A DNA stretch of 64,000 nt from Deinococcales bacterium. GTDB lineage: Bacteria > Deinococcota > Deinococci > Deinococcales > JAAFIG01. The notes below the pieces were generated by a model. It saw only the letters and a list, made by a program, of their open reading frames with translations. It was not told the origin of the DNA and ran no database searches. This document shows positions 1-64,000 of this stretch, piece by piece; position 1 is the stretch's first letter; every line of letters starts with the position of its first letter. The stretch covers positions 83,216 to 147,215 of the forward strand of contig JAAFIG010000009.1 of assembly GCA_013298595.1 (NCBI GenBank), read 5' to 3'. A program made the position numbers and the translations under genes.

Positions 1-1
1 T

Positions 2-427
2 ACTGCGCTCGAAAATGCCGATATTACCAGTGCCAATGCGATGCTCGGACGTGCCTATCATGCCAGTGGCGTGGTGGTACTCGGACAGCAATTGGGGCGA
101 ACAATTGGTACACCCACAGCCAATATCGCTGTACCAGAGGGGAAATTACTCCCCAAAGGTGTGTATGCTGTACAACTCGAGACACCCGAAGGTACTTGGC
201 ACAATGCCATTGCTAACATTGGCACACGTCCAACCATTGGTGGTATGACCGAGAGTTTTGAAGTCCATATTTTTGATTTTGCATCCGATATTTACGGACT
301 CGAAGTCAGTGTGCAATTCAAGCATTTTATACGAGCAGAACAAAAATTTGCTGGGTTGCCTGCTTTAATGGCGCAACTCGAGACGGATAAGATGCAGGCT
401 CGAGCTTTGTTAGCAAAAATAGGTTGA
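2..427 (+). CDS. ribF: RibF riboflavin kinase/FAD synthetase, C-terminal part (5' end outside window)
   Basis: This is the riboflavin kinase half of the bifunctional enzyme that phosphorylates riboflavin to FMN and adenylates FMN to FAD in the cytoplasm. The frame is open from base 2, so the N-terminal adenylyltransferase half lies outside the window. Family hallmarks are visible in order: a LGRAY segment, the GRTIGTPTANI stretch (nucleotide- and Mg-binding PTAN), GVYAV, the NIGTRPT motif, the VHIFDF strand and a final IRAEQKF helix. An ATG at 41 falls inside the conserved LGRAY region and is not the true start. CTCGAG occurs three times in this short piece. Confidence 0.93.
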   Translation, partial: TALENADITSANAMLGRAYHASGVVVLGQQLGRTIGTPTANIAVPEGKLLPKGVYAVQLETPEGTWHNAIANIGTRPTIGGMTESFEVHIFDFASDIYGLEVSVQFKHFIRAEQKFAGLPALMAQLETDKMQARALLAKIG

Positions 428-502
428 TTTGTCAGGGCGAGGCGTGACTGTTTTGATTCTAAGACTCACCTTTCGGGCAGAATCGCTCGCTGCTGCAGTT
501 TA

Positions 503-1741
503 TTATTGTGATCGCCAAGTTTTCATGTCTAGCACCGTACCACTGTGCCTTGATTGCTCGAGGGCAAAAGCCAGTATGTGACTCTCGAGGTATTCTTGTG
601 GTTCGGCTCGAGTGTTGTTTTTGACAGCTTCGATAAAGGCTTGGGTTAAACCTGCATCGCCACCACCATGTCCGTTTTGGGTAGCGAACTTAATCACCTC
701 TCCTCCACCGTGGAAACTGGTTTGGTAATCGTGTGGCTCGAGGCGAATTTCTTGTTGACTGGCTTTGAATACGCCTCGCAAGGTGGCTTTTGTGCCATCA
801 AAGCGCAAACTCCTGCCTTCTTCGCTGCTGTGTCCGTGCATAGCAAATGTACCAGTTGCTCCGTTCTCGAGTAAAAAACTTGCTACTTGATGATCTACAA
901 CCGTATTATCCATGCGGTAGACGCAACGCCCATAATCAGTTGTCTCAAGGGCAACTTTTCGCCCTGCAATGCTCGAGTCAGTGCTGATAACTGTAGCTGG
1001 GAATGCCAGTGGTTCTTGTAAATAAATTTTTGCCGCATGAAAAGCACAGGTTTCTTCGACGGGGCAACCATCTAAGCAGCATTTTGGTGCGTCTGTGGGT
1101 GCATTCTCGAGGGTGAAGTGCTGCAAACTACCAAAGCTCGAGAGCGTGGCAATTTGCGAACCTGTAATCCATGAAATTAAATCCAAATCGTGTGAGCATT
1201 TTGCGAGAATCATTGGGCTGCTGGTGTCTTCGCGTCGCCAATTGCCGCGTACATAACTATGGGCATAATGTGAACTCGAGACATTTTCACGCCAATCAAA
1301 ATTGATAATTTGCCCTAAAGCACCACTTTGCACAATCTGACGAACTTTTTGAAAAAAAGCTGTGAAACGTAATACATACCCCAGCATCACCACGCCACTC
1401 GAGGCTTGAGCTGCGGCTAAAACGCGTTTTGTTCCTGCTAGTGTACTTGCCACGGGTTTCTCGAGCATCACATGTTTATTGGCAGCTAGGACAGTTAAAG
1501 CAGCTTCTTCGTGCAGCACATCTGGCAAACAAATAAACACTACTTCAGCTTTTGCAACAGCGTCTTGCCAACTCGAGAATTGATACGCTGGCGCAATACC
1601 GTGTGCCACAGCAAAACGTTCGCGTTTCGCAACATCTATATCTGCTACAGCCACAAATTGCAATTGATCTGAATGCTCGAGAGCGTAACGCCCGTAAACA
1701 TCAAAACCTCGGTTGCCTGCCCCTAGCATCACAGCTTTCAT
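503..1741 (-). CDS. Gfo/Idh/MocA family oxidoreductase
   Basis: NAD(P)-dependent dehydrogenase of the Gfo/Idh/MocA superfamily (412 aa), cytosolic, probably acting on a sugar, inositol or related polyol. The N-terminal Rossmann fold starts with GAGNRG (residues 7-12). The EKP signature that places the catalytic lysine is at 94-96, and a conserved HDLD in the C-terminal domain is near 184. A cysteine cluster (CC...C...C, around residues 220-232) sits in the C-terminal domain, as in a subset of this family. It could bind a metal or be structural. The gene is divergent from the cupin gene at 1762 with only 20 bp between them. The substrate cannot be told from sequence. Confidence 0.9.
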   Translation of the reverse strand: MKAVMLGAGNRGFDVYGRYALEHSDQLQFVAVADIDVAKRERFAVAHGIAPAYQFSSWQDAVAKAEVVFICLPDVLHEEAALTVLAANKHVMLEKPVASTLAGTKRVLAAAQASSGVVMLGYVLRFTAFFQKVRQIVQSGALGQIINFDWRENVSSSHYAHSYVRGNWRREDTSSPMILAKCSHDLDLISWITGSQIATLSSFGSLQHFTLENAPTDAPKCCLDGCPVEETCAFHAAKIYLQEPLAFPATVISTDSSIAGRKVALETTDYGRCVYRMDNTVVDHQVASFLLENGATGTFAMHGHSSEEGRSLRFDGTKATLRGVFKASQQEIRLEPHDYQTSFHGGGEVIKFATQNGHGGGDAGLTQAFIEAVKNNTRAEPQEYLESHILAFALEQSRHSGTVLDMKTWRSQ

Positions 1742-1749
1742 AATTTCGG

Positions 1750-1761
1750 TATTATCGCACG
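1750..1761 (+). promoter_or_regulatory. TANNNT -10 box for leaderless start at 1762
   Basis: TATTAT at 1750-1755, six bases, then ATG at 1762, with no Shine-Dalgarno sequence. Transcription would start at or next to the A of the ATG. Confidence 0.55.
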
Positions 1762-2256
1762 ATGACTGCCGAAAAAATCATTGAAATTCTGGGATTACAA
1801 CCACATCCTCGAGAAGGCGGGTATTTCCTCGAGTCTTACCGCTCAAAACGCGTTTTGCCACCGCTCGAGACGCATCCCAATCCGCGTCTTGAAAGCACCG
1901 CAATTTATTATTTACTAACCCCAGAGACTTTCTCGAGATTACATAAACTTTGTGGTGATGAAGTTTTTCATCATTATGCAGGCGATGCTGTGGAAATGCT
2001 GCAATTATTCCCTGATGGCAGCAGTCAAAAATTGATAATTGGTAAGGATTTAGAGCGTGGTCAGCGCCCACAAGTTGTTGCACCAGCCCATGTCTGGCAA
2101 GGCTCGAGATTAATGGATGGTGGGCAATGGGCTTTATTGGGTTGCACAGTCGCACCGGGTTTTGAATACGAGGATTACATTGACGAAACGAGCGCTTTTT
2201 TTCTCGAGCGTTACCCTCACGAAATTGAGTTAATTACAGCACTAACCCCAGATTAA
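1762..2256 (+). CDS. Cupin superfamily DUF985 protein
   Basis: A 164-aa protein matching the DUF985 (cupin_5) family along its whole length. It has the N-terminal HPREGGYFLES segment, the STAIYYLL strand, the FHHYAGD metal-type motif and a late LGCTVAPGFEY strand, all typical of this single-domain beta-barrel family. Members are small cytosolic proteins. Some have been linked to sugar or nucleotide-sugar chemistry, but no reaction can be assigned here. The start is supported by a TATTAT box placed six bases upstream, consistent with a leaderless mRNA. Five CTCGAG copies lie in the first half of the gene. Confidence 0.88.
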   Translation: MTAEKIIEILGLQPHPREGGYFLESYRSKRVLPPLETHPNPRLESTAIYYLLTPETFSRLHKLCGDEVFHHYAGDAVEMLQLFPDGSSQKLIIGKDLERGQRPQVVAPAHVWQGSRLMDGGQWALLGCTVAPGFEYEDYIDETSAFFLERYPHEIELITALTPD

Positions 2257-2271
2257 ATGCAAACTCGAGTA

Positions 2272-2715
2272 TCAAAATTTGATTTCGTAAAATGGATGGG
2301 CTGAGTCTGAATCGGTCGTACCTGAATACCCTAAACGATTGTAAAATGCAATCGCGCTTTGACTTGCGTACCATTCAAACCAAGTCCCACCAATGCTTTT
2401 TGCCCAATCTCGAGTGGTTTCAAATAATGCTTTGCCAATTCCTAAGCGTTGATACTCTGGATGAACATATAAACTCGAGAAACGAATTTGCTTACGTCCA
2501 CTCATGATGTACTCCTGCCACACATGTGCCATCGCAATACCAACAATGCGCCCCTCAAGTTCTGCGACAAGAATACCTTGGGAATCGGATTCAAGTTGTT
2601 GTTTAAACCGAGTAAAAGCTGCCTCGAGTGAATCTACTGGGCGGTCGTACTCGAGGAACGGATAGAACATGTCCCAATCGGTTTCTAAGGCACGACGAAC
2701 ATGATAGTTAAGCAT
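2272..2715 (-). CDS. GNAT family N-acetyltransferase
   Basis: Single-domain acyltransferase of the GNAT fold (147 aa). The acetyl-CoA-binding core is visible as the LYVHPEYQRLGIGKALF segment (the R/Q-x-x-G-x-G/A pyrophosphate loop), followed by the C-terminal WYASQSAIAFYNRLGY strand and helix typical of the family. The acceptor (amine, amino acid, antibiotic or protein) cannot be predicted. It lies downstream of the PLP-enzyme gene in the same direction (47-bp gap) but has its own TAAACT box six bases before the ATG, so it can be transcribed alone as a leaderless mRNA. Confidence 0.88.
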   Translation of the reverse strand: MLNYHVRRALETDWDMFYPFLEYDRPVDSLEAAFTRFKQQLESDSQGILVAELEGRIVGIAMAHVWQEYIMSGRKQIRFSSLYVHPEYQRLGIGKALFETTRDWAKSIGGTWFEWYASQSAIAFYNRLGYSGTTDSDSAHPFYEIKF

Positions 2716-2727
2716 GGTTTGAGTTTA
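2716..2727 (-). promoter_or_regulatory. TANNNT -10 box for leaderless start at 2715
   Basis: On the minus strand TAAACT (2722-2727) is followed by six bases and the ATG ending at 2715. No Shine-Dalgarno sequence is present. Confidence 0.5.
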
Positions 2728-2762
2728 CAAAATCTTCGGTACCAGAACATCATTCAAATGAC

Positions 2763-3704
2763 TTACAACCAAGTTTGCATTTGCTGCTGGGTTAAATTCC
2801 CGCCACAAATAATTGTAGCCACTCGAGCATCTGCAAATTGCTTTGGATGCTCGAGTAATGCTGCAATACCCACCGCCCCAGATGGTTCAACTACCAAGCC
2901 AAGGTGTTGATGTAATAATTTCATTGCCTCGAGAATAGCAGCATCCGAGACTAGCAAGCCATCATCCACAATGCCATTCATATCTTCTAACGCTTCAAGA
3001 ATCGGTTCACGCACACCAATTCCATCGGCTATTGTGTTGACACTATCATGCCGAATAATTTTTCCTGCTCGCCAAGACTCGAGCATACTTGGTGCACCAG
3101 CCGCACAAATTGCAAAAACTTTAGCCCTCGAGTTAGCTTTGATATATCGTGCCACACCATTAAGAAGTGCACCATTACCTAGTGGAATCAGTACTGCATC
3201 AAAGTCTTGACCTTGCAATAACTCGAGTCCAATTGTACCAGCCCCTTCCGAGATTAGTGGCTCGAGTCCATCTTCGACCATGTACGCATTATTCTGCACT
3301 GCCCATTTTTTCGCTTCGAGTTTCGCCGCATCAAAATCCTCGCCTTGTAAAATGACTTTTGCACCCAATGCTCGCATTCGCTCAAGTTTTAATGGGTTGG
3401 CATGAACACTGGCAAAGACAGTTAAATCAATGTTTTTAGCCCGACAAGCATATGCCATAGCTTGACCGAAATTACCAGCACTACCGCAAACAAGTTTAGC
3501 TGTTTGATCTAAGCTCGAGACAAAATGCGCTGCCCCACGACCTTTGAAACTACGAATAGGGTTAAGGGTTTCGATTTTCACAGTCACTCGAGTATTCAGT
3601 ACTGCCGATAATACTTCCGATTCGTATTGTGGACTGTTGAGAAATTCAGATGGAATGGTTTGCATGGCGTTTTGAATAGATTCGAGACGAAGGCGATGAT
3701 TCAT
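2763..3704 (-). CDS. PLP-dependent threonine/serine dehydratase-like enzyme
   Basis: Fold-type II pyridoxal-phosphate enzyme (313 aa), close to threonine/serine ammonia-lyases and related racemases. The Schiff-base lysine is in the RSFKGRGA motif (K54), the phosphate- and substrate-binding loop is GSAGNFGQA (74-82), and the C-terminal ICGGNLT segment holds the glycine-rich region. It lacks the C-terminal ACT-like regulatory domain of biosynthetic IlvA, so it resembles the catabolic type. It is the third gene of an operon, its ATG overlapping the stop of the nitrilase-family gene by 4 bp. This suggests that hydrolysis products made by the two upstream hydrolases are passed on to it. The exact substrate is open. 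Confidence 0.86.
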   Translation of the reverse strand: MNHRLRLESIQNAMQTIPSEFLNSPQYESEVLSAVLNTRVTVKIETLNPIRSFKGRGAAHFVSSLDQTAKLVCGSAGNFGQAMAYACRAKNIDLTVFASVHANPLKLERMRALGAKVILQGEDFDAAKLEAKKWAVQNNAYMVEDGLEPLISEGAGTIGLELLQGQDFDAVLIPLGNGALLNGVARYIKANSRAKVFAICAAGAPSMLESWRAGKIIRHDSVNTIADGIGVREPILEALEDMNGIVDDGLLVSDAAILEAMKLLHQHLGLVVEPSGAVGIAALLEHPKQFADARVATIICGGNLTQQQMQTWL

Positions 3705-4435
3705 AGGTTCTCCTTAAAAATGCTTGCCGAAGCAACGCCAATTTCAAATTCTGAAACTGCGTTCATCAATTCACCTGTGGGACTGTAGATTTGCGTACAA
3801 CCATAACTTAGGCTCGAGTGATGATTACCAGTCACATCGGCTGAGACAATATAACAACCTGTTTCAATAGCACGAAGTCTTAGATTTTCAGGGCTTTTTT
3901 CGCGCCAATTGGCTGCAATTTCCTTAGGCAAAGCATTGTTTAATGGCATGACAATAATCTTTGCTCCTGCCACAGCGACTCGAGCCGCAGCTTCTGGAAA
4001 ATTCGCATCAGAGCAAATGTTAATACCAAAATTAGTGTTTGAAACTGTAAAAACTGGGTATTTATCTCCAGCTAAAAAGCACTTTTCATTAGGATGTGTT
4101 TTGCGGTACTTACCAAGTAATTTTCCATTGGAAATGACAACAGCCGTATTGAAAAGATTTGCACCAACAGATTCGATTAACCCAAGTACAATGGTACTTT
4201 TGAATGGCTTGAGTTGATATAAAATATCTTGAAACTTTGCGCTTTCCAAGTCCAGCGCAACGACGCTTGCTTCAGCAACATTCGTAAAATAACCAGTTAA
4301 GAAACACTCAGGAAAAACAACCAAATCTACTTTTTGAATCTCTGATAACTGCAATCTTGTAAGTATCAACTCGAGATTTTGCTTTCGGCGAGAAGTTGCA
4401 AAAGGCATTTGGAAAGCAGCAATCGTCAAGCTCAC
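3701..4435 (-). CDS. Carbon-nitrogen hydrolase (nitrilase superfamily)
   Basis: Cytosolic amidase/carbamoylase-type enzyme (244 aa) of the nitrilase superfamily. The Glu-Lys-Cys triad is intact: E43 in FPECFLTG, K112 in YRKTHPNE and C141 in NICSDANFPE. The family usually cleaves an amide, N-carbamoyl group or omega-amide. True nitrile cleavage is rarer. The gene overlaps both neighbours by 4 bp (ATGA-type junctions), so its production is coupled to that of the upstream M20 peptidase and the downstream PLP enzyme. This points to stepwise breakdown of an N-substituted amino acid. The substrate is not identifiable from sequence. Confidence 0.88.
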   Translation of the reverse strand: MSLTIAAFQMPFATSRRKQNLELILTRLQLSEIQKVDLVVFPECFLTGYFTNVAEASVVALDLESAKFQDILYQLKPFKSTIVLGLIESVGANLFNTAVVISNGKLLGKYRKTHPNEKCFLAGDKYPVFTVSNTNFGINICSDANFPEAAARVAVAGAKIIVMPLNNALPKEIAANWREKSPENLRLRAIETGCYIVSADVTGNHHSSLSYGCTQIYSPTGELMNAVSEFEIGVASASIFKENL

Positions 4436-14163: not shown

Positions 14164-14422
14164 CATTGGCATACGCGTCAGTCATCAAATGCAATTTCAG
14201 CACGGGAGGGAAAAGCCCTACCCCTAGGAAAAACATCGTTGTTGTAGTGGTCGCCTGCTCCGAAAACGGGAGGTCTACTCAAGAAAAAATTGTTTTGTGT
14301 GTTAAGTTGTTTGATGGTCTGCTCGATTTTCAAAGCTACGGTAGTATTCACTTTTGGTGCGTATCATGGTTATCACCAGAATTTTGATAGTAACAATCCC
14401 CTCAAGACTCGAGGGGATTGTT
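14164..14422 (+). ncRNA. Possible structured small RNA from the MerR-type promoter
   Basis: Inferred transcript running from about 14170 to the terminator at 14392-14422. It can form a 7-bp stem GGGAGGG/CCC(A)TCCC-type hairpin (14204-14210 with 14216-14223) and a longer stem with outer GTAG/CTAC pairs and an inner CCTGCTCCG/CGGGAGG stem around AAAA (14244-14278). It matches no RNA family I recognise. It could equally be a decayed gene or the 5' part of a regulatory leader. Confidence 0.35.
14392..14422. terminator. Strong hairpin between convergent transcripts
   Basis: A perfect 12-bp stem, AACAATCCCCTC with GAGGGGATTGTT, around a 7-nt loop. It lies 17 bp past the stop of the giant operon (minus strand) and at the end of the putative plus-strand RNA. 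It is likely bidirectional. T-runs are short on both sides. Confidence 0.8.
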
Positions 14423-14438
14423 ATTGCTTTACTAGAGA

Positions 14439-20400: not shown

Positions 20401-22526
20401 ATGGTTGGAATTTGTACTGTACGGCTTTCGTTGGGTGCTAAGTCAAAGGTCTGATTGAGGTCCTCGCCATTTAAGCCAAGTGGCAATAAATCGGTCAGAT
20501 TGACATCTCGAGCCACACTTGCACCTGTGTTTTTGACAACCACAGTGAAGTTGACTTTCTCGCCTGGTTGTACCAAATCTTTGTCTACGGTTTTGGTTAA
20601 GGTTAGTTGTGGTGGCGGAGCAACCACACGTACATTACTAACCGCAGCCACACCACAGTTTGGCTCGAGGGTAGCGCGAATGGTTGCAGCCTCTATTGGT
20701 TTGCTGGCTTTAACCCGTACATTCAGCACCAATGGGGTACTGGCACTGCTAACACCATTCAAAGTGGTCGCACCAATTGCCTCGAGTCCATCTGGCAACT
20801 GCATATTGATACTGGTTGGGATTGGTGTAACAAATTGGGTACTAGCCGTGGCGGTCAGTGTGGCTGTTTCACCAAGCGCTAAATCTAAGCTAGCAGGACT
20901 TAGGGTTAATGTTTGGGCAACACTGTACTCGAGGGTAACATTAACTGTTTTGCCACGTTCGGCATTGATGGTCACAGCTTGGGTGGTTGCCCCAGCAAGG
21001 TTTGCACCTGTGATAGTGGTCGCACCAGGATTGACCACAACTGTGGCTGGTGTTTTACCTTGCACATTTTGTCCTGCAACACTGAAATTCGTACCTGTAA
21101 TTGGTGTGCGTTGACCACAAACCAGTGCTACAGCATTGACTTGTACGTTGGCTTTTGGACAATCTGCCACAAAGCGAATATATCCACTGTTACTGGTAAT
21201 GGTCACTCGAGTGCTGCTGTTGACCGTACCAGTGCCCTCAAGAATACGCGCTGTCACAGGAGTCCAGCAGGTTGGTAAAACAGGTTGGGCAACGCGGTTT
21301 CCTGCTACACCTGTCACTGTGTAACTCGAGCCTGGAATTGGCTTACCTTGGGTATCTACAACATCTACTTTCAGTGGCACAATAGCTGGGCGGGTGCTTT
21401 GGAAACCTGGTAAGAAGGCATAGAGTGGTTTATCTTCGATGCGGACTCGGAAAGCAAAGGAATTACTGAATTGACGGGTGGTTGGTAACAACCGTGCCAA
21501 GATTTTCCAGTTACCAAGTAAGCTCGAGTCTACTTTGAATTTGTTACTTGCCCACTTGGTATCTTCGGAGGCTGTTAATGGGAAACGGCGACCATCTGGC
21601 GAAACCAGCGTTAAAACAATTTCTTGGTTACCATCAGCATCGTAGTTAGCTAATTCGATACTTTTACCGATATAACTTTTATCCACTTGCACAAATGCCA
21701 CAAGTTGATCTTTGTTAAATTGTCCTCGAGCATTGACCGTAAATTGGCTGGCTTCGATGCGTAAACCACTGGTGGCACGCAAGGCAAAACTGTTTTTACC
21801 ATTGCCATCGGAAGCCACTCGGAATGGGTAAATACCGGCTGGTAATGAACCTTGAAAAAACGATTCATAACTGTGTTGTGTACCAAGGCTGTAACTACGA
21901 TTAAAAACAATTTGATCTGTCGCATTGGTTAATTTAAAGCCCGTGGTTAAAGTGGCAGTTTTACCGTATAACTCGTCGCCGTAGTAGGTTACACGGTCTC
22001 GAGCGTTAGCGTAATCGTTGCGATTAATTTCTGGACTAAATACTTCGATACTGGTTTCGCGTCCACCAGCTGCTGCTGGCACATTAATTCGGTAATCATC
22101 GGCAGGGATTTTCCAACCTACAGCTTTACCTATCGAAACCAATGGTAACGCAATACTTTGCCCATCACCTTTAGCCGCATTCAGGGTTGTGCCATCTTGC
22201 ACTACTGGATTGGTTCTCGAGGTTGGAACTGGCACACCACCTGTTGGTTTAGGGGCAGCGGGTTGAGTACCACTCGAGGCTGGCTTAGTTGGTGTTGTGG
22301 TTGGTTTGGTAGGCGTAGTGGCTGCTGGCTTAGCTGGTGTCGTGGTTGGTTTAGCAGGTTGTGTTGCTGCTGGTTTAGGCGCAGGTTGACCAATCTGTTT
22401 TGCTGCTGGCTTAGTTTGCGCCAGTGCCAACGGCAATGCCGCTGACACCAACACTGAAAGAAGGAAGGCTTTAGTAATCGTTTTTGCACGTGATGTTGCC
22501 GCTTGGCGGCGAGTAAAGAAATTCAT
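14439..22526 (-). CDS. Giant DUF11-repeat surface protein with outer-membrane-barrel-like C-terminus
   Basis: A 2695-aa exported protein. A signal peptide (cut near ALPLALA, about residue 36) is followed by a Pro/Thr/Lys/Ala linker to about residue 100. Seven DUF11 (CARDB/Ig-like) repeats lie at about 637-1433. Four are near-identical (LTLTKTVDKDLV...) and three are of a second type (..TK..VAPT.TNVG...YTIVVRNNGP). The C-terminal ~780 residues are rich in alternating-pattern beta strands with the SVYSKNNLSVRVSRQLL / TDYSIDYETGIVRL segment and end in aromatic-rich strands (IYFRIDWKIDERTFGW), as in outer-membrane barrels. Its ATG overlaps the stop of the 4179-aa gene (ATGA), so both are made together. 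It probably anchors or exports the larger partner at the cell surface (inference). Confidence 0.82.
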   Translation of the reverse strand: MNFFTRRQAATSRAKTITKAFLLSVLVSAALPLALAQTKPAAKQIGQPAPKPAATQPAKPTTTPAKPAATTPTKPTTTPTKPASSGTQPAAPKPTGGVPVPTSRTNPVVQDGTTLNAAKGDGQSIALPLVSIGKAVGWKIPADDYRINVPAAAGGRETSIEVFSPEINRNDYANARDRVTYYGDELYGKTATLTTGFKLTNATDQIVFNRSYSLGTQHSYESFFQGSLPAGIYPFRVASDGNGKNSFALRATSGLRIEASQFTVNARGQFNKDQLVAFVQVDKSYIGKSIELANYDADGNQEIVLTLVSPDGRRFPLTASEDTKWASNKFKVDSSLLGNWKILARLLPTTRQFSNSFAFRVRIEDKPLYAFLPGFQSTRPAIVPLKVDVVDTQGKPIPGSSYTVTGVAGNRVAQPVLPTCWTPVTARILEGTGTVNSSTRVTITSNSGYIRFVADCPKANVQVNAVALVCGQRTPITGTNFSVAGQNVQGKTPATVVVNPGATTITGANLAGATTQAVTINAERGKTVNVTLEYSVAQTLTLSPASLDLALGETATLTATASTQFVTPIPTSINMQLPDGLEAIGATTLNGVSSASTPLVLNVRVKASKPIEAATIRATLEPNCGVAAVSNVRVVAPPPQLTLTKTVDKDLVQPGEKVNFTVVVKNTGASVARDVNLTDLLPLGLNGEDLNQTFDLAPNESRTVQIPTIVAPEANGEIVNTARVTWSGEPLEATARVRVQSPPQLTLTKTVDKDLVQPNEKVNFTIVVTNTGGSTAENVRLTDIIPDGLVGTNIGQTFNLAAGQSRTVTVSTTVTSDATSTIVNTARVTWSGEPLEASAQVRVATPDQPTLTLTKTVDKDLVKPGDRATFTIVVTNTSKVVARDIRLIDLIPAGLTGANIDQTFTLQAGQSRTVRVPTTVTRDLAGTIVNTAQVTWAGDPLEASAQVRVEVAPAQLTLTKTVDKDLVKPGDRANFTLVVTNTGTTTVNNLRLTDVIPAGLTGANIDQTFNLAAGQSRTIRVPTTVAADASGTITNTARVDWSGAPLEASAQVRVEPPVVTPQAVPLDLVITKRAVPTSLRIGERTTFIITVTNNGPTDATGVVVSDPLPDGLEYESVTSSQGEATYANGVITASIGDLGKGRSVTIQVRATATQVGSFTNIANVSGDQTETTLENNRAAATVVVTALIDLNLTKSVTPTQTDVNKPVEYTLVIRNDGPADANEVVLTDPMPEGINYVGASSSKGSVSFANGILTANVGSLAVGSSVTVKVQGTTTRAGTFRNTATVKAAEAETRTDNNVASAQVVVLEPIIRTDLEITKTVAPTRTNVGNAVLYTIVVRNNGPQTATQVTMSDPMPAGIEYVSATSTQGNVSFANGIVSASIGTLPVGNSATIIVRANTTRAGTFRNTATTTGLETETRVDNNSATAELQVLVPTGILNVTASSLACSVRSPLNGTAFTINGTRYITPARVELPVGNYIIQPEALPGSSSSALPVVVGTQATTADIAYNVITRLELSPKPLILTAGQSGNIRAVASTDFPYSVPVSIQIRIPNELTPNGIVSSNGTIAAGQAFTYNVSVRALRPTNSNISATLEPNCNVTDTTPLEVRAAPLPDQRRETQVVLLARLAEIPFAGSNLILSDRIPAGSSYIAGSSSQVENPSFATNTPTTAPGRAIADPFTAGDRLFWVVPVTNTSVYGITYRLAHTGALNMPQDRVAAVLAIPSSRSAGTPRTGDVRIDPNSPLGKLLGQGELRVLQGDPSILGLLARAIPFAGTTAATTARPVGAAATSLRLTALRPTTDGADQPTIKVEAFDQNGLPASDEYVTIKTNADPADADAAPSIPGFQVKLENGVAYLRLQSLTSNALGTLPLQDIQVEARVVNANGVISSSNRFKTNDFSVDAASPIQGNNVPVAATERPVVAVGLASAQIRYDFGTGNFTADGGLRFFLRGAVFPGSTFTIGINWQADYDPSRAVDPLRLSGELLPPANPYEYLPLLGDSSILGADVRSSEGIYARLETANSFIMFGQFNPQFRGVLSNYSSTYNGFQGAIRGDGFSLNAFATDAPNSNKSVRLVANGTDLYFLPDNSINRNSESIYVSVYSKNNLSVRVSRQLLQRNTDYSIDYETGIVRLTKAVTSFDANLNPQFIEASYGTASVGRDFRFGAQAALGSPEFNVTATAVQFRNGTLGANSSFLLAGGFNIASGGFQLGAELGYSGIFQDPANSGLGVGAQLNWTVGSSFQLRARYQDLQLGYVNPETNTPVGAGRSLTAGLTLGDPNGLRFNANLDHNQSYLTNSGSTNVSGEGRLGLGNGWSVGLGLQYLYSFPSNLNELFGTVGLEANLGFIKLGLLQRVPLLGIPLSYGTTEASLEVPLGAGFSVLLKDKLTYAWNGINQQLAFGVKGSFSNSELIRAIAGNSAIVPDAFGSTNVSATYDLTTTDGNAGRARLGVDTTIPLGTNFAAQLGGEAVFDPTGSTTGSASLGLLFTDAGFKGLARAQLGFQPSGIRQVYTVGFIAQLSDEFVLSPKVEYATDPSKAGEQSGIDFSVAAAYRGDDLSILTNHRAKTGFYSLTDDFIEGEIQFGYVANERFFPRLGFQYRYGLDSSVFTGLVSGGFTYFITDVIGVGAQAGYYFQPATNFSAIGFGVEASLKVVDRLLFTVGYNVLGFNGALGGAFRPGIYFRIDWKIDERTFGWR

Positions 22527-25500
22527 CGAATCACCTCGTCGCTGTTTGGTACTGGCAGTTGAATCAGCGTAAAAATTTCTTCATAAGAAATATCTGGGTC
22601 TGTCAGCACCAAATCGGGCGGTAGCGGCGTAAATAACGGATACGTAATGGTGTACGTGCCAGCAGGGACAACGCCAGTCAAACGCAGTGTTGTGCCATCA
22701 AAAGTAAATGGTTGCTTATTACTGATTTGCGGCACACCACGTTCAACCGTGCCAGTTGGCAATGGGTCGGTAATCACAAGATTTTGCACTGCTTTCTCGA
22801 GCGTAATCGTGATGGTGACTGCATAACCAGCCCCACCTTGAGCAATGGCTTTGGTTAAAGTAACAGGTCCGCGTTGGACTAAAGTGCTGCGGCTCTTGAC
22901 AGCGGCACCTGTTGGTGGATTCAGTAAGAAGTCTTCGATGGTGATACCACCTGTTTCTGGCGCAACCACAAAGCGGGTGCAAGGCGCATCATCTGGGACG
23001 TACTTACAAGTGAATGGCGCTGTGAACGGATCTAAACGCACAGCATGACGACCTGGTTCAACATCTGGGATGCTGTAACGACCAAGGGTGTCGGTCACAG
23101 CCCAACGTCCATCCGAGAGGTAGACTCGAGCACCTTGGACGGCTTCATCGGTGTCGCGTTCAAAGCTATCGTTGTTGTTGTTATCGAAGTAGACACGTCC
23201 AACGATGGTGGTGCGTGGATTAAAGACACCTAAGGAAACTTTGACCGCTGCAATCGAAGCGTTGGATTGCACACCGACTGTGGTTGTGCCATTAGCCGCT
23301 GTTGCAGTGGCACTAGCAACATTGAGCAAATTACCGTTATTGGCTGCGGGTGTGACAATGGTTTTGAAGCGAATCGAACGACTGGCATTGGCTGCAATAC
23401 TACCTGGCAACGTCCAAACCAGCACTTGCTTACCTTCGGCATTGGTCGAAAGTGTTGGATCTGCAATAACTGCTCCAGCAGCGGTACTCGAGCCAGCTTG
23501 GTATTGTAAACCAATCGGCAGTGTATCGGTAATAACAACATTGCTCACAACCACAACACCGTTATTGATCACACTGAGTTGATACGCCAGTGTGCCACCA
23601 ACCAGTACAGTGGGTTGTTGATCTCGAGGAATCACTTGATCGCCAACGACCACATTTTTCTCGAGTCGGATACTTGGGCGGACATAACCAACATTTGGTA
23701 CACGTCCGATAGCTCCTGCTGGTACTTGCACAACTTGTGGGTTGTTGTTGGTGGTTAGCACATGACCTGTTGGGTCTATGACTTTCACTGTGGCTGAACC
23801 AAAGGCAAGATCGCGGTCGCCTGTGGCGTAATCGCCGTTTGCATCGGTGGTGACCACTTTCAGATTGCCTTTAGCATCGGTAATTTCGACGCGTACTCCT
23901 GCAATACCTGGTTCGCCTGGGTCTTGAACACCGTTGTTGTTGGTGTCGTAGAAGACTCGACCTGTTAAGCCACCAAATAATGGTTGGTAGCCAACATCGG
24001 CTGCTTTGGCATTACCTGCTGGTGGAACATTGACGGTTTGTGTGCTGTTCGCCGTGGTTAAACGGTGGTTATCTGGGGTGGTGTACACCACATTCACAGG
24101 ACCCGCTGCAACATCGGCAGTGTAATTACCATTGGCATCGGTACGAACTTGCACTGGTGTACCACCAAGATCGGTGATGGTAACAAGTACATTTGGGAAG
24201 TTAGGTTCGGTTGGTTGTTGAATACCATCGTTGTTATCGTCGCGCCAGACATGACCCGTTAAAGTACCACGTTGTTGATAACCATCTTTACCTGCATCGT
24301 TGGCAATATTTGGTAAGACATTGACCACATTTGGATCTGAACCAGTGGTGGTTAAGACCACACCAACAGGCAAGGTGCTATCAATTACTTTGACAGTAGC
24401 ATTGCCACTGAGTACACCCAGTACACTCCAATCGCCACTGGCATTGGTGGTGGTGGTGACAACTTTACCCGCCGAATCGGTGATTTGGACTGTCACATTG
24501 TTAATACCTGGTTCGCCAAGGTCTTGGATTTTATTGCCGTTAGGATCAAGGAAAACCCGTCCAAAGACACTTCCTTGTGGGCGGTAACCATCAAAACCAG
24601 CATCGTTGGTGGTGTTTGCCACAACATTGACAGGACTCGAGTCAAGACCAGCGGTTTGCGTTAAGTTTGGTGGCAACGTTGCATCGACAACATTGACTAT
24701 CGCTGTTCCCTCGAGCACACCAGGAGCGGTGTATTTACCATCTGAACCTGTTGTGACTGTAGTGACTTTGCCACCAGCATCGGTGATTTGCACATCCACA
24801 TTTGGAATACCTGGTTCGCCTGGGTTTTGAATGCCATCGCCGTTAGTATCTGTAAAGACCACACCAGTAACCGTACCTTGGCGGCGGTAGCCATCTATGC
24901 CTGCATCGTTTGGATTGGCATTTGCCACGGTTTTACCAACTTGTACAACCACTGGGCTTGGGTCTGTACCAGCGGTTTGGCTAACACCAGCTGGTAATGT
25001 TGATTCAACAACATCCACTGTGGCTGGGGTTGCACTGGCTGGAACACTAAGGGCAGTGTACTCACCTGAAGCGTTGGTTGTGACAGTACGAATACCACCA
25101 AAAGCATCGGTAATTTTGACATCCACACCGCCTAAACGTGGTTCGCCAGAATCGAGTGCTCCGTTGCCGTTGGTATCGTAGAAGATAATGCCAACAACAT
25201 CACCTCGAGGTTGGTAACCATCAAAGCCTGCGTTGTTATTTTGTCCGAAAACCACAGTTACTGGGCTTGGGTCGGTACCAGCGGTTTGCACATGGTTGGC
25301 TGGGAAATCTGGGTCGGTGGTATCCACATCTACAGTGCTGATACCTGCTGGTACACCAGTGAAGCTATACGTACCGTTGGCTCCTGTTGTTGTGGTCTTG
25401 GTGCCACCAAATGGGTCTGTCAGGGTAACAGTGATATTTGGAATGCCCACCTCGCCTGGGTCTTGGCTGCCGTTGCCGTTAGTGTCAATAAAGACCACGC

Positions 25501-28500
25501 CATTGACATCACCTCGAGGTTGATACCCATCAAAGCCAGCATCGGCTGGGTTAGCGCCAGCTACAGTGCCACCAGAAACCACATTGACTGGGCTTGGATC
25601 AGTACCAGCGGTTTGCACATGTTGGGCTGGGAAATCTGGGTCGGTGGTAATCACATCTACTGTAGCAGCCCCAGCAGGGATATTTAGGAAGGTGTAATTA
25701 CCTGTTGCATTTGTCTGCACAGTACGGGTAACGCCGTTCACATCGGTCAAAACAACATCGATGTTTGGAATACCTAATTCGCCTGGATCTTGACTGCCGT
25801 TACCATTGGTATCCACAAAGACCACGCCAATTACATCGCCTGGAGCAATTGGTGTTGTATCCGTGGCATCGTTATTGCTTGGAGTTGGGTCTACAACACC
25901 AGCTGGCACTGCCACAGTGGCTGTGTTACTGATCGTGCCATTGATTGGGTTGAGCAAAGTACCACGAACTTCAAAAGTCAGGCTCGAGTTGGCTGCAAGG
26001 TCTGCATTGGTTGCCAGATCGCCTGTTTGGAAACCAGTTGTTCCTGCTGGGCAGGTCGCGCCACCTGCAGCAGCGGCTTGCACACAACGCCATTGACGAC
26101 CAGTTGCTGCATAGAAAGCATTTGGTAGTGTATCGGTCACACCTGCGCCGATCACATTGCTTGGACCTGCGTTTGTCACTACGATGGTATAGGTGTTAAC
26201 CGCACCAGCGTTGATGGTGGCTGGGGCTGTAATACCGTCTGTTTTGGTAATTTGTAAATCTGCCACTGGGATTGGTGTGGTGACCACCGAGCTTGTGTCG
26301 TCTTGACCATTGGTGGTGCCGTTATTGGGTTGGCTATCTGGGTCGAGAACATCCGAAGCTGTGATTTGTGCGGCATTAGTGTACTCAGCAACGGTTTTGT
26401 TTGCTTCGACTTGAGCAACAATATCCACACTCGAGGCAGCACCAGCATTGAGCGCTCCGACATTCCAAGTGATGGTTCCAGCTGCATTGGTGGCACTGGC
26501 GTTACTACTGGAAACAAAGCTGTAACCAGCAGGGAGCACATCTTGAACCACAATACCTGTGGCTCGAGTTTCGCCACTGTTTTGCACCGCTAAGCGGAAG
26601 GTCACATTGCTACCAACCAGTGGTTGAATTGGTGGCAATGGATTAATGATTGTTTTGCTTAAACTTAGGTCGGCACGAAGTTCACCGAAGTTAATTTCGG
26701 TGCGGTTAATACTGACGGTGTCTATCAGTTGAATATTGGTGACTTGACCACCAACACTGGTGCCTGGCGGTACTGTCAATAAAGCGGGATTACCTGTACT
26801 CGAGGCTGTACCAGCACTGTCGCCAACGGTGGTACTGCGGTTAGTGGTGGCTGGTTGTAATTGGGTCACGGTGTAACCCGTGCTGGTTGGCGAACCAACT
26901 GTGCCTGGGGTATCGAGCAAGTTGGTAAAGACATACTCGCCTGTGCCGCTGGTAAATGCCGATTGTTGCGTAACTGCGCCATTGATGTCTGTACCTGTCA
27001 GGATAACCTGTACACCTGAAAGTGGTAAGTCTGTACCAGCATCAAAAACACCGCTATCGTTGACATCAAGGTAACTACGACCAGCTAAGGTATTTAAGCC
27101 TGAGATGGTTGGGCTACTTTCAGAATCATCGTCGGCAGCAGTATCTATGTTAGTGGTGTTATCACCTGGAGTGCTATCTGGGTCAAGCATATTTGAAGCT
27201 TGGATTTGCACAAAGTTACGGGTGGTGGCTGGTGTGACATTGGCAGAATTAGCATCCACATTGACCGTCACAATAATCAGGTTCGATTGATTATTATTTA
27301 AGGTACCAACATTCCACTCGAGCTGTGTACCACCAGCAACAGCTGTGATGGTTGGTGTAGCCGCACCGCCACCGATGGTGCTCGAGACATAGCTGTAGCC
27401 ACTGGGTAAGAAGTCGCGGACAACGACCCCTGTGGCTTGGGTGGGTCCATTATTGACAGTGATAATTTGGAATTGCACGCCCAGTTGACCAGCTTGAATG
27501 GTTGTGCCACCAACTTGGGCTTTGGCAATGGTTAAGTCGGCGAGGAGTTCACCAAAGTTAAAGTTGATACCGTTTTCGTTGCCTTGCAAGTCAATTCGGG
27601 TGATGGTATTGGTTGCGCTGTTAGCTGTACCGTTAACTGTTGCACCTGTACCAACATTGGTGCTGCCATTGCTGTAATTGGTTGGTTGGTCTTGGGTTAG
27701 TGTGTACGTTGTACCCGTAGCTGGTGGCAATAAATCTGTGATACTCCAAGCACCTGTGCTCGAGTCAGGTGTGGCAGTACGATTGACTGGGTTTCCGTTA
27801 ATATCTGTACCTGTGAGGGTAATGGTTGGTACTGGGGTTGGAGCAGGGTTCGTATTTGGATTACCCAAACCATTTTCACCAATACCTCGAGTGGTGTTGT
27901 TATTAACATCTAAGTAAACAAACCCAGAAATACTCGGAGCAGCTTTAATCTGCGTTGGTACTGCATTGGCATCATCGTCAGCGGCTGTATTTGTATTGGT
28001 GGTGTTATCACCTGGGGTGCTGTCTGGATCGGCAACAGCCGCATTTTGCACTTGTACAAAGTTATTGGTATTTGCCAAAGTTGCTGTGGCATTGACTGTC
28101 GCACGAACCAATAATGTGGCTGTGCTACTTGCTCCACTAGCCGTCAAATTACCAACAGTCCAATCGAGTTGGTCACCACCTGTTACAGCGGTTCGCGTTA
28201 CACCACTACCAACAGCTGGGGTGCTCGAGATAAAAGTGTACCCACTTGGTAAGAAATCACGGACACTGATACCTGTATTGTTGGAAAAACCATTATTGGT
28301 GACAGTAATCGTGAAGACCACATTCTGACCAATGGTTGGTGTGGCAACATCTAAGGATTTAGTGATACTTAAATCCGATTGCAATTCGCCAAAATCGTAA
28401 TTAACAAGGTTATCACCAAAATTAGCAATCACGCTCGAGGTCGCATCATTGGCTGGTGTGCCATTGGTTGGATTACCTGCTCGAGTATTCGTAACAGTGC

Positions 28501-31500
28501 TCGAGTGCAAAGTTGGTTGAGTCGTTTCGGTAACGGTATACCCCGCTAAGCTACTCTTGGGTAATTGCCCAAAGAAGTAACCACCAACTGGTACACCACC
28601 TGCTGGAACGGTAATGGTTACTGGTACGGCTGGTGCACCATTAATTGAAACATTATTGGTGACTGTGCCACCACCTGCGACAGCAGCACTGGCAGTTGTT
28701 GTTGTAATAACAATATCGCGGTTGAGATCGTCTCTACCAGCTAAGGTGATGGTTTGACCACCCAAGCCAACATCGCCAGCATCGAAGGTGTTGTCATCTA
28801 CAACTGTACGGAAAACTCGTCCTGCCAGTGTGGCTGGTGGTAATTCAGCGAAATTATTGGCAATACTGTTTTGATTGCTACCAAGTACCACAGCACTAAT
28901 CACATTGTTGGCAGCCGTACCAGTTGGCGTACCACCAATGGTACCAACAGCGGTGTTGGTGACTGTACTAATGAAATTAGCTGGTTGTGTTTCTGTGATG
29001 GTGTACGTTGCTGGACGCAAAGCCCCAAAGTAATAGCCACCAACTGGTAAACCAGCAGGTACAGTTACACTGACTGGTGTAGCAGCTCCACCATTGATGG
29101 AAACATTATTGGTAACTGTGCCACCTGCTGCTACAACCGCACTGGCTGTGGTGGTGGTAATTGTGACAACTTGCCCAAGATCGTTAGTACCCGTCAATGT
29201 GACAGTCACACCTGCAATACCAGGTTCACCAGCTTGTTGAATATTATCGTTGTTACTGGTTTGGAAAACCACACCCGCGATACTTGAGAGCACAACTTCG
29301 GCAAAGTTATTGCCACTCGAGGTTTGACCTGCACCAAGTACCAAGTTGTTAATGATATCTGGAGTCGTACCCAAAGGTGTAGTAGTTCCTGCTGTTCCGC
29401 CTGTTGTGGCAGCACCTGATGTAGTAATACCATCGGCTGTACCTGTTGGTTGGATGCGTTCCTCAACACTGTATGAACCGCGTTTCAAACCAGCAAAAGC
29501 GGTGATGGCTGTACCTGTGCAATCCACGCTCGGGAATACATTGGTTGCACCTGAGGCAAAGCTGTAATTACCGTTCACATCTGTGCGAGTCGAGAAGGTA
29601 ACGGCTGTATCAGCATTTAAGCCTGTGCCACCAGCAACACCATCTAAACCAAAGTCTGTGCCAGTTAAAGTAATGCACTGATTTGCCAATGGTGTATCTG
29701 TTCCTACAAGGAAAACACCGTTGCTAAGCCCGTTATCTTGGAAAACCTGACCACTAATTGCACCTGTGCGCTCACCAAAGTCTTGCAATGTTTGATTGGT
29801 GGTGACATTGGTTAAATTAATAACATTGCTTGGATTCTGTGCTGCATTGCCATAAGCACCCGGTTGGGTCTCGGTGATTTGTACACTCGAGCCACTTGGA
29901 ATAATCGCGCTGTAATCACCATTGGTATCGGTGATTAAGTTACGTGTAAATGGTGCTCCTGTTGGTGGTGTGACCAAAATTGTAATTGCTACACCTTGAA
30001 TACCAGGATTAGTTCCACGCACACCACTCGAGGCAACATCGTTATAGACCCGACCACTAACAGTCACTGGAACAATCACAGATACTTGGGTTGGGTCTAA
30101 TCCACCTGTGGTATTTGGTTGATTAATAGCGGCTGTTGGTGGGGTGACACCTGTTGGTGCTGGTCCTGTGATGCTGTTATCTGTTTTGACACCAGCTATT
30201 GGTAAGTTACCTGCTGTTAATGTGGCTTGATTATCTAAAGTCACTGGTGGTGTTGCCGTGACAAGGGTTGGCACGGTCACACGAATCACTTCGCCAGGAG
30301 CAATCGAAGCAATGGCTGTGGTTGGTAAATTCGTATTGGTAGCAGCAGGGAAAGCAGTTGGCGGTATGGCTCGAGTAATTTGGGCTTGTCCCACTGTTAA
30401 CCCAGCTGGGAATGTATCGGCGATTACCACATTGGTTAAAGCCACTGTACCCGTATTTTTGTAAAAAATTGTCCAGAGAATCGTATCGTTCTGAGTCACG
30501 CTTTGGCTGAGGTCGGCATCATTGGAAATCTCGACAAATTTCCAACCAGCCGCTGTTGGTGTCGCCACCACAGGTGCCAGTGTTAGATTTTGTCCAGCCA
30601 ACGCTGTTTGAGGAATGGTTGTACCTGTTGGTAAACCAACACCAATATTGGCTGGCACAGTGGTTGTGGTGTCAGCATTATCGGTCAGCGTTGTTAAGCT
30701 CGAGTACGCAGCAACTGTGGCTGTTGCTTGGTTTGTTAAGTTTGTGCCAACCCCACCAGTTATGGTTACTGGAATAACAATCCGAATCACTTCATTGGGC
30801 ACAACTGTGGCTAATGGACTCGAGAGCACCGAACCAGTACCTGCAAAGCCTGCATTCATACCTGTGGTGGTAGCAGTTGTAAAGGTTGTGGCAGGTGGTA
30901 CTAATCTCGAGATGGTTGGTGTACCAGCCACGGTCATGTTACTGCTAAGCGTATCGGTGATGTCCACACCAGTGATATTGGCTGTACCTTCGTGCTTGTA
31001 GTAAATCACCCAGTTGAGGGTATCGCCAACTGTGGTGGTTTGGCTGTTATCAGCATCAACTGTGCGAACCACATACTTATAACCCACCAATGGCGGTGTG
31101 ATATTGAGGGTAGCGTTGGCTGGAGCTGGGTTTGAGCCACGGTCTGTTTTAAGAGCATCAGCTGGAATGGTGTTTGGGAAACTACCCACAGTCGTTGTTG
31201 TTGCACCTCTGACATTTAAAACAATGGTACAAGTTCCAGGGGTTGCACCAACAGCCGCAGGAATTGTACCTCCTGTCGCATAAGTAAATGAGGTGGCTGT
31301 GGTGCTAAGCGATGCCGCATTGCAACCAACGCTCGAGGCAACGCCTGTAATTTGTAAACTCGAGCTGACCGAATCGGTGAATGGTGCGCTAAGTGTGGCA
31401 ATACCAGCCGTGGCATAATTGCTAAGCGTAATGGTCAGTTGACTGGTTGCATTGGGTTCAATACGGGTTGGGTTGTAACTCTTAGCAACAGTCGGTGGAA

Positions 31501-60230: not shown

Positions 60231-60671
60231 ATGGCACGTTCAAAGAAAAAACCAAGCCTCCTAACCACCGATGCTTTCCTTGAAGCGGTATTAGATGCTG
60301 GCGGACTCGAGGATGCAGTGCTGGTTGCTTTGGAACTCAAACCCAAAGTCTTACATGCTTGGCTTGAAAAAAACCTTGAGGTACGCGAAGCGGCTTTACA
60401 AGAACTCGAGGAACGCGAAATAGACACTTCTGAAGCCATGTTTGGTTGGTTACGCCCAAGTACCAAAAGCAAACCGCTCGAGGAAGAAGATAGCAATTGG
60501 GCGCAATACAAGGCATTACTCGAAGAAGAACCTAAACTCGAGGCGTTGGAAAGTTTAGAAAATGCCAAAGCAAGAACTACCGATTTAGTGGCGCAATTAC
60601 AAGCAGCTAAACGCGCTCAACTCGAGCAGAAAAAATTAGCAAAACGCCCATTTGAAACTTCGGAATGGTAA
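60231..60671 (+). CDS. Charged, helical hypothetical protein
   Basis: A 146-aa soluble protein with no family I recognise. It begins MARSKKK, then a predicted helical, Glu/Leu/Lys-rich chain (LEAVLDAGGLEDAVLVALELK; ALQELEEREID; AKRAQLEQKKLAK) that could form a coiled coil. The only aromatic-rich part is MFGWLRP near residue 70. It has a good -10 box at the leaderless distance and eight or so CTCGAG or near-CTCGAG sites, so it looks like a long-resident real gene. Its 3' end is duplicated in tandem (60662-60707). The function is unknown. Confidence 0.7.
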   Translation: MARSKKKPSLLTTDAFLEAVLDAGGLEDAVLVALELKPKVLHAWLEKNLEVREAALQELEEREIDTSEAMFGWLRPSTKSKPLEEEDSNWAQYKALLEEEPKLEALESLENAKARTTDLVAQLQAAKRAQLEQKKLAKRPFETSEW

Positions 60672-61963: not shown

Positions 61964-62941
61964 ATGATACTTAAAGAGCGCTACGACCAAGACCTGCGTC
62001 TAGTCTCATCCCCTCAGGGCTGGGCAGTCTTCGCTTTAACCATACTCGGACTGGTTTTACTGCCAGTGCTATTTCCTGCATATTCGTACCCATTGGCATT
62101 ATTTATGGTCTATAGCTTAGTGGCGATTGGTTTAAATATTGTGGTGGGTTTTACTGGACAAATTTCGCTAGGGCATGCGGGTTTCTTTGCCATTGGAGCC
62201 TATATCGTCGCAAAATTCGCACCACTGATTAGTTTCCCAGTGGCATTGGTGTTGGCTGTCATTATTTGTGCCTTAGTTGGTTACGCTGTGGGTGTACCAG
62301 CCTTAAAACTCGAGGGTCCGTATTTAGCTATTGCAACCAGCGGCTTTGGATTAGCGATTCAACAATTTTTTGCCAATACCCCAACCGAATGGTTTGGTGG
62401 ACACAGTGGATTAATTGTTGAGAAAACCCAATTATTTGGCGATACCTTTGCTAAAGATAGCGCTTATTATTACATTGTACTGTTGGTAGCGGCACTACTG
62501 GTTTTTATGGCATTCAACTTAGCCCGTTCGCACATTGGCAGAGCCTTTGTGGCAGTCCGAGATGCCGAACTTGCTGCTCAGACCAGCGGGGTTAATGTGG
62601 CTCGAGCTAAAACCCTAGCGTTTGCTATTTCGGCAGTCTATGCAGGTGTAGCAGGTGCTTTATTCGCACCACTCTTAGGCATTGTTTCACCAGAAAGTTT
62701 TAGTTTACTACTCAGCATACAGTTTCTGAGCATGATCGTGATTGGTGGTATTGGCACAATTGCAGGTGGCATTCTTGGCGCTGGCTTAGTGACTGTCTTA
62801 CAAGACCAACTTGCCCAAGCCCCAGATTGGTCTGGTTTGTTGTATGGCTTAGTGGTATTGGTCGTGATGATTATCGAACCACTGGGTTTATACGGACGCT
62901 GGCTGAAAATCAAAATCTATTGGAAGACGTGGCCATTTTGA
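61964..62941 (+). CDS. livM: Branched-chain amino acid ABC transporter permease LivM
   Basis: A 325-aa inner-membrane permease of the LivM type with about nine hydrophobic segments. Recognised by YSLVAIGLNIVVGFTGQISLGHAGFFAIGAY near the N-terminus, LKLEGPYLAIATSGFGLAIQ, FVAVRDAELAAQTSGVNVARAK (ATPase-contact region) and the C-terminal VIGGIGTIAGGILGAG. I choose the ATG at 61964. A longer reading from 61889 or 61901 cannot be excluded, since none of these has a clear Shine-Dalgarno sequence. The operon continues with livH and a binding protein. ATPase genes livG/livF must lie outside the window. Confidence 0.9.
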   Translation: MILKERYDQDLRLVSSPQGWAVFALTILGLVLLPVLFPAYSYPLALFMVYSLVAIGLNIVVGFTGQISLGHAGFFAIGAYIVAKFAPLISFPVALVLAVIICALVGYAVGVPALKLEGPYLAIATSGFGLAIQQFFANTPTEWFGGHSGLIVEKTQLFGDTFAKDSAYYYIVLLVAALLVFMAFNLARSHIGRAFVAVRDAELAAQTSGVNVARAKTLAFAISAVYAGVAGALFAPLLGIVSPESFSLLLSIQFLSMIVIGGIGTIAGGILGAGLVTVLQDQLAQAPDWSGLLYGLVVLVVMIIEPLGLYGRWLKIKIYWKTWPF

Positions 62942-62966
62942 AAGACCTTATGAACGGAGTTTATTT

Positions 62967-63848
62967 ATGAGCCTCGAGACTGCCATTCGCTTACTGATTA
63001 TTGGTATCGAAGTCGGAAGCATTTACGCTTTAGTTGCCCTTAGCGTGGTGGTCTTATATCGCACATCTCGAGTACTCAATTTTGCCCAAGGCGAATTTTC
63101 TTTACTGGCTTGTTTTCTGGCTTTTACATTAGCCACTCAAATGGGTGTGCCATTATGGATTGCCTTTTTATTAGGCTTAGCCTCGAGCGCTGTGGTTGCA
63201 GGTGTATTCTATTTTTTCTTGTTGCGTCGAGCTAAAGCCCAAGACCCAATGAGTTTACTAATTTTAACACTGGGTTTTAGTTTATTTGCCAATGGTGCCT
63301 TAGCCCTGATTTTTAAAGTGGATAACAAACAAATGCCTGGTTTTGTGGATGTAATTGACACTTGGACAATTGCTGGTTTTACAATTGCAAAAAATTCGGT
63401 GCTAATTGCCATCAGTGGTTTTATCATGATGTTACTGCTGTATTTTTTTGTACAAAAAAGCAAAATTGGGCTTGCCATGCGAGCCGTATCACAAAACCCA
63501 GAAGTAGCTAAAGCTCTTGGAATACCAGTCAATGTGGTTTTAATCTCGAGTTGGGCTGTCGCTGCTATTCTTGGTAGTGTTGCTGCATTACTATTAACAC
63601 CTGCTGTGACTTTAAACCCAAATGCCATGCTTGACCCATTAAATAAAGCCTTTGCTGCTGCTGTTATTGGTGGTATGACCAGTTTGCCTGGCGCAGTGGT
63701 TGGTGGGTATTTACTTGGCATTATCGAATCGTATGTTGGAAATTTTGTTCCACAATTTAAATTAGCCCTCGCATTTATCTTGGTGATTGTCGTGTTGGTG
63801 TTTCGTCCTCATGGTTTGCTAGGCGAGAAAGAAACTCGTCGAGCCTAA
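62967..63848 (+). CDS. livH: Branched-chain amino acid ABC transporter permease LivH
   Basis: A 293-aa LivH-type permease. It has IGSIYALVALSVVVLYRTSRVLNFAQGEF-like beginning, MRAVSQNPEVAKALGIPVN (ATPase contact) and AVIGGMTSLPGAVVGGYLLGIIESY. CGGAGT lies eight bases before the ATG. It pairs with LivM and the following binding protein to import branched-chain or related amino acids. Confidence 0.93.
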   Translation: MSLETAIRLLIIGIEVGSIYALVALSVVVLYRTSRVLNFAQGEFSLLACFLAFTLATQMGVPLWIAFLLGLASSAVVAGVFYFFLLRRAKAQDPMSLLILTLGFSLFANGALALIFKVDNKQMPGFVDVIDTWTIAGFTIAKNSVLIAISGFIMMLLLYFFVQKSKIGLAMRAVSQNPEVAKALGIPVNVVLISSWAVAAILGSVAALLLTPAVTLNPNAMLDPLNKAFAAAVIGGMTSLPGAVVGGYLLGIIESYVGNFVPQFKLALAFILVIVVLVFRPHGLLGEKETRRA

Positions 63849-63878
63849 CGTGCTTAGCACAAAAAAGGAGTGGGAATT

Positions 63879-64000
63879 ATGCGTAACAAAGTAAAAATCG
63901 CCTTCGGTATAGCAGTGGGAGCAGTGGCAGCTATTGCACTTGCTCAAGATTTAGGAGTCACCAAAACCAAAATTAAAATTGGTACATGGGGACCCACCAG
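63879..64000 (+). CDS. Branched-chain amino acid-binding protein, N-terminal part (3' end outside window)
   Basis: The first 40 codons of a LivK-like periplasmic binding protein. AAGGAG lies eight bases before the ATG at 63879. It has a signal peptide (KVKIAFGIAVGAVAAIALAQ) and then TKIKIGTWGPT, the usual first strand of this family (IKIG...GP.TG). The gene runs off the window, so the length and fold cannot be checked. Confidence 0.8.
   Translation, partial: MRNKVKIAFGIAVGAVAAIALAQDLGVTKTKIKIGTWGPT

Follow-up and report, generated by a model that had tools for sequence, protein, structure and literature searches.

A densely repeated CTCGAG palindrome in Deinococcota whose copies exclude one another at short range

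Chi, KOPS and matS are over-represented short motifs that act in chromosome maintenance. They are much less frequent than the palindrome described here, CTCGAG, and are oriented or confined to regions, whereas CTCGAG is symmetric and found everywhere. The DNA uptake sequences of Neisseria (DUS) and Haemophilus (USS) are non-palindromic words of 9–12 bp that occur about once per kilobase. Like CTCGAG, they are family-wide, leave an imprint on proteins and are at genome-wide equilibrium, but CTCGAG is not an oriented, non-palindromic word of 9–12 bases found about once per kb. XhoI/PaeR7I restriction-modification systems recognize CTCGAG itself, but an XhoI-family enzyme is absent from f1, the family of the bacterium studied here, and the presence of such an enzyme elsewhere in the phylum goes with rarer CTCGAG.

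The closest described system is HIP1 (GCGATCGC) of cyanobacteria, together with the alternate HIP sequences (Robinson 1995; Elhai 2015, PMC4390886): there too, a single palindrome is hugely enriched in genes and spacers. HIP and CTCGAG are alike in phylum-wide inheritance with loss in some genera, and in the avoidance of most other palindromes. They differ in phylum (cyanobacteria versus Deinococcota), in the word itself (CTCGAG has six bases and is 67% GC), in density (0.3–2.7 per kb for HIP, about 6 per kb for CTCGAG) and in their relation to methylation, a methylase being predicted for each HIP genome whereas no shared f1 methylase was found in five Pfam families. To the comparison we add a 20-bp exclusion and a dipeptide imprint, both measured here for CTCGAG. 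CTCGAG has two traits of the HIP class, strong genome-wide excess in genes and spacers and clade inheritance with losses, and the likeness in kind proposed by the initial annotation holds. It is not HIP1 itself, whose core CGATCG occurs twice where 33 copies are expected (163 kb of the source genome, G000), and the phylum is Deinococcota. We found no published CTCGAG HIP, nor any HIP in Deinococcota, in the open-access literature.

A DNA-level signal in every reading frame

The window is the whole stretch of DNA that we analysed, 64,000 nucleotides. It contains 392 copies of CTCGAG against 13.4 expected from base composition (29-fold; GC 46.6%), or one per 163 bp, with 12–38 copies in each 4 kb. 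The next hexamer palindrome reaches about 2.5–2.6-fold at most. Genes are taken here as long open frames, uncurated, and the genomes are drafts of 91–94% completeness. The following features are referred to below.

1 to 64,000, no strand assigned: 392 copies of CTCGAG, spread across the full window
1 to 4,000, no strand assigned: the 4-kb stretch richest in CTCGAG by window count, 38 copies
2,264 to 2,655, no strand assigned: five successive sites between genes (2264, 2409, 2474, 2623, 2650), enrichment beyond genes
14,393 to 14,425, minus strand: terminator-like hairpin (−24.8 kcal/mol, z −5.1) with CTCGAG (14408–14413) in one stem arm
22,523 to 35,062, minus strand: gene for a giant DUF11-type repeat protein, low CTCGAG density (3.35 per kb)
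60,306 to 60,626, no strand assigned: five successive sites between genes (60306, 60405, 60477, 60537, 60621)

The longest CTCGAG-free stretch of the window, about 23660–24635, lies inside the giant gene at 22,523 to 35,062. That gene is one of two that adjoin at 14439–35062 (2,695 and 4,179 aa); both encode DUF11/SdrD-like repeat proteins and have reduced CTCGAG density. In the hairpin, a CTTGAG arm seems to stand opposite the CTCGAG arm, so that one pair is G-U; it looks as though only one side had kept the site.

The same density is found across the whole genome (4,582,226 bases in 68 contigs), which has 27,159 copies, one per 169 bp. In the source bacterium and its relatives the excess over chance is about 28-fold, with a copy about every 170 bases. 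The reversed word, GAGCTC, occurs 15 times in 4.58 Mb, where about 960 copies would be expected, and other GC-rich palindromes are nearly all strongly depleted (GGCC 0.02-fold and CCGG 0.08-fold in the window and in samples of G000–G003).

The enrichment does not depend on reading frame. Coding sites in the window number 186, 87 and 97 in the three frames, which is 12.5, 11.6 and 23 times the count after shuffling synonymous codons, and spacers contain a further 22 complete sites (4.9 per kb). CTCGAG spells 186 of the 271 Leu-Glu pairs in the window. Across 163 kb of G000 it is used at 67% of Leu-Glu, 62% of [SPTA]-R-[VADEG] and 42% of X-S-[SR] positions, where 1–4% is expected, and the noncoding DNA of that sample is 29-fold enriched. 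Odds ratios against codon usage or composition are 20–112 for all frames and noncoding DNA in f1 and in genus g11 (family f2). Since all frames and noncoding DNA alike are enriched, a force acting on the DNA itself is the sole explanation left. A preference for the codons or codon pair Leu CTC and Glu GAG would account for the half of coding sites that are in-frame CTC GAG, but enrichment is strong in both remaining frames and outside coding DNA as well; this explanation is already refuted and its probability is close to nil.

Most of what the initial annotation had claimed of this stretch stands: a recount of bases 1–4000 again gives 38, the enrichment extends genome-wide, sites fall in all three frames and in spacers, the copy in the terminator is real, and codon choice is ruled out as the cause. 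Its six-base unit also survives, the flanks being nearly free once reading frame is allowed for; an extended motif such as GCTCGAGC was rejected, the preference for C at +1 being mostly reading-frame composition. Its statement that CTC and CGA codons lie mostly within sites is right for CTC (56%) but overstated for CGA (41%).

The signal has also reached the proteins. Leu-Glu is the most over-represented dipeptide in all four f1 genomes (2.2–2.8-fold), with Glu-Leu near 1; Leu-Glu stands at 1.3-fold in four further genomes of the same order. The Leu-Glu excess means that CTCGAG has shifted amino-acid sequence beyond codon choice.

Inheritance, turnover and acquired DNA

Four species of f1 are available (G000–G003, of which we sampled 1.6 Mb). 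The initial annotation had pointed to related genomes for comparison, and all four prove equally enriched, with 26,619–28,178 copies of CTCGAG and at most 15 of GAGCTC each, at about 6 per kb throughout even though sampled GC ranges from 46 to 59%. The two genomes of genus g11 are as rich as f1 (6–8 per kb). Avoidance of GAGCTC is likewise common to all f1 genomes and g11.

Farther away the enrichment is graded. Within f2, genus g8 is intermediate and g4 has none. By-frame odds ratios against codon usage, which beyond f1 rest on small samples, are 12–34 in G104 (family f3), 5–17 in G068 (genus g13, which we infer to be Meiothermus-like), 5–8 in G061 and 2–18 in family f4. In Thermus-like genomes the frame-0 value is about 1, and in f2 g4 the ratios lie below 1. 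CTCGAG is the top palindrome in G061, presumably Allomeiothermus silvanus (6.7-fold), and in an A. silvanus plasmid (3.7-fold). On a Deinococcus radiodurans plasmid it is at 0.5-fold and is not the top palindrome; no chromosome of Deinococcaceae was identified among the genomes compared. The source genome is placed in Deinococcota by a G007 locus, a short part of which matches Thermus thermophilus DNA, and by G014, of the same order as the source genome, which the evidence suggests corresponds to Oceanithermus profundus (PMC3111992). On the basis of this survey, CTCGAG enrichment characterizes much of the phylum and reaches its extreme in f1 and g11; in Thermus it was lost or was never strong.

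Individual sites turn over while occupancy stays the same. G000 and G001 share 50% codon identity at identical residues. Among conserved Leu-Glu pairs, 53 of 61 G000 sites are also sites in G001; where G000 has no site, G001 has one in 15 of 21. Turnover at the same occupancy indicates that equilibrium has been reached everywhere, rather than the upkeep of particular functional sites: the pressure toward CTCGAG is genome-wide and not confined to a few functional sites.

CTCGAG is scarce in recently acquired genes. Many site-free gaps of at least 0.9 kb coincide with low-GC surface-gene and restriction/defence cassettes, although the loci examined were partly picked around methylase genes and are so biased toward such cassettes. 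These gaps suggest that CTCGAG builds up after DNA is acquired. One example, L056:6589-10147 (around the methylase C66 of G000), is a 3.6-kb island of 33% GC without CTCGAG. Beside a divergent methylase it encodes a HEPN protein and a protein with a GmrSD N-terminal domain, and it is probably a recently acquired defence cassette.

Viral contigs dense in CTCGAG mostly have a GC-rich background, and there was no clear phage of the clade among the matches listed. A 9.7-kb, 64% GC piece of the 110-kb viral contig L231 has 57 CTCGAG and zero GAGCTC; it is possibly from a virus of an enriched host.

Methylases and XhoI-type enzymes

In the model for HIP1, a solitary methyltransferase would mark CTCGAG and methyl-directed repair would make and keep the sites (Elhai 2015). 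In every cyanobacterial HIP genome a methylase is predicted for part of its HIP sequence (PMC4390886), and we therefore searched for a methylase of CTCGAG. Across five Pfam families (PF01555, PF00145, PF07669, PF02384 and PF02086) there is none common to all f1 genomes: G000 has six methylases, none with an ortholog in every f1 member. The best shared, C15 (C5-type), occurs in G001 and G012 only and adjoins other restriction-type genes. Several other G000 methylases also adjoin restriction-type genes such as a NotI-family nuclease or GmrSD; at L054:9650-11496, for instance, the methylase C34 adjoins a NotI-family restriction enzyme.

XhoI-type methylases are a family that we defined by the methylase beside a broken XhoI-family gene in G009 (which we take to be Truepera radiovictrix). 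They occur without an XhoI enzyme in several g13 and g24 genomes (G015, G025, G037, G073, G063 and G064), as at L032:991-2871 of G015 and L381–L385 of Meiothermus-like genomes, which may encode solitary CTCGAG methylases. However, the family is absent from G000, G001 and G003, has a weak match in G002 and is sporadic elsewhere. Nor does CTCGAG density in g13 track it (2.31 with the methylase, 2.06 without, p 0.08, the two highest values lying without). Furthermore, a repair mark, with a reach of about 1 kb, would neither need a site every 169 bp nor produce a 20-bp exclusion. Unrelated methylases of CTCGAG specificity in different genomes are possible, but we regard the methylation model as doubtful.

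None of the f1 or f2 genomes has a match to the XhoI-family endonucleases. They are found in three f4 genomes only, apart from the broken gene of G009, and those three have about half the CTCGAG density of their sisters. That halving, and the depletion of nearly all other GC-rich palindromes, TTCGAA, ATCGAT and GTCGAC included, would fit restriction avoidance leaving CTCGAG as the sole tolerated TCGA palindrome. Avoidance only depletes, however, and cannot yield 29-fold over composition or 20–110-fold over codon usage; it is refuted as the sole cause and is very improbable as an explanation. XhoI restriction and a solitary XhoI-type methylase both fail to follow density. Vsr-type very-short-patch repair was also rejected, as it predicts depletion of CTTGAG, which is not depleted.

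Short-range exclusion and a putative bound protein

Copies of CTCGAG less than about 20 bp apart are depleted two- to four-fold, in coding and noncoding DNA. This exclusion is new here. We computed the pair function from 9,987 sites in 1.6 Mb of the four f1 genomes and took the expectation from permuting the occupancy of possible sites within frame class. Observed pair counts are 0.27–0.30 of expectation at 6–14 bp, 0.53 at 15–17 bp and 0.66 at 18–20 bp, then stay at about 0.8–0.9 as far as 70 bp and are 1.00 past 120 bp. In each genome, gaps of 6–20 bp are too few (14, 56, 41 and 25 seen against 48, 97, 68 and 70 predicted), and permutation within genes gives the same result. In noncoding DNA, 22 pairs are seen for 60 expected at 6–11 bp and 37 for 59 at 12–17 bp, with no deficit from 18 bp. 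In the small samples from lineages outside f1, 46 pairs are seen against about 100 expected at 6–20 bp, and the deficit likewise ends near 20 bp.

Ten control codons show no repulsion of this kind. Other inverted 6-mers with four G/C give 0.86–1.10 at 9–17 bp and 0.67 at 6–8 bp, and direct-repeat 6-mers of equal GC give 1.10–1.23; these controls rule out hairpin avoidance and repeat instability as the cause of the spacing. There is no significant helical periodicity in the spacing (1.6 Mb, four f1 genomes).

Because neighbours matter, the hexamers are not each driven alone. This bears on biased repair or conversion without function, in which a sequence-specific enzyme would convert near-sites into CTCGAG. 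Sites have been gained nearly everywhere that sequence allows and transition neighbours of CTCGAG are in excess, as such a process predicts, but one that acts per hexamer has no reason to heed neighbours within 20 bp. One-step neighbours of CTCGAG stand at 0.3–3 times Markov expectation, which is compatible with selection and biased conversion alike. We consider conversion alone unlikely.

Independence beyond about 60–120 bp means that the value of a site is unaffected by another 120 bp away, so that functions exercised per kilobase (uptake, Chi, strand marks for mismatch repair) would saturate well before one site per 169 bp. This weighs against a DNA-uptake or self-recognition signal of the kind that molecular drive has built up in Neisseria and Haemophilus: CTCGAG is palindromic, has six bases and recurs every 169 bp, a signal read per kilobase fragment would have saturated, and the enrichment is missing from Thermus-like genomes. 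Deinococcota do include naturally competent members, and f1-wide inheritance, the proteome imprint and scarcity in new DNA do resemble uptake sequences; even so, such a signal is quite improbable.

A loss of value within about 20 bp would be predicted if a protein covered the site, or if CTCGAG had a structural role on a very local scale. Exclusion together with long-range independence best supports a widely bound symmetric DNA-binding factor. We infer that a footprint underlies the exclusion, that selection is the force at work, and what kind of protein may be involved. The same exclusion could come from redundant benefits or from some structural property of the DNA. In the mechanism that we propose, a putative symmetric DNA-binding protein, for example a nucleoid-organizing one, would occupy the copies of CTCGAG; its footprint of about 20 bp would exclude a second site nearby; and selection would retain CTCGAG wherever sequence permits, in a genome at equilibrium. 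That each CTCGAG is a binding site of a conserved, abundant, two-fold symmetric protein covering about 20 bp has, in our judgement, a little under an even chance of being right. Tens of thousands of selected sites imply a large effective population. The initial annotation had offered three causes: of these, a shared methylase was not found, uptake, like any mark of kilobase range, fits poorly with the long-range independence and the 20-bp exclusion, and a nucleoid-type or bound-protein role is favoured.

Our tentative proposal is that Deinococcota have an undescribed, symmetric and abundant CTCGAG-binding protein with about 27,000 sites in f1 genomes, covering about a tenth of the genome (27,159 × 20 bp) with a 20-bp exclusion, and that selection for its sites may have rewritten codons and proteins. 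HIP1 has been described in cyanobacteria and has gone unexplained for three decades; a second phylum with an independent, several-fold denser word provides an independent test. The exclusion distance points toward a local function. Moreover, the enrichment is shared by cultured relatives (Allomeiothermus, Oceanithermus and probably Meiothermus), so that the question can be tested at the bench.
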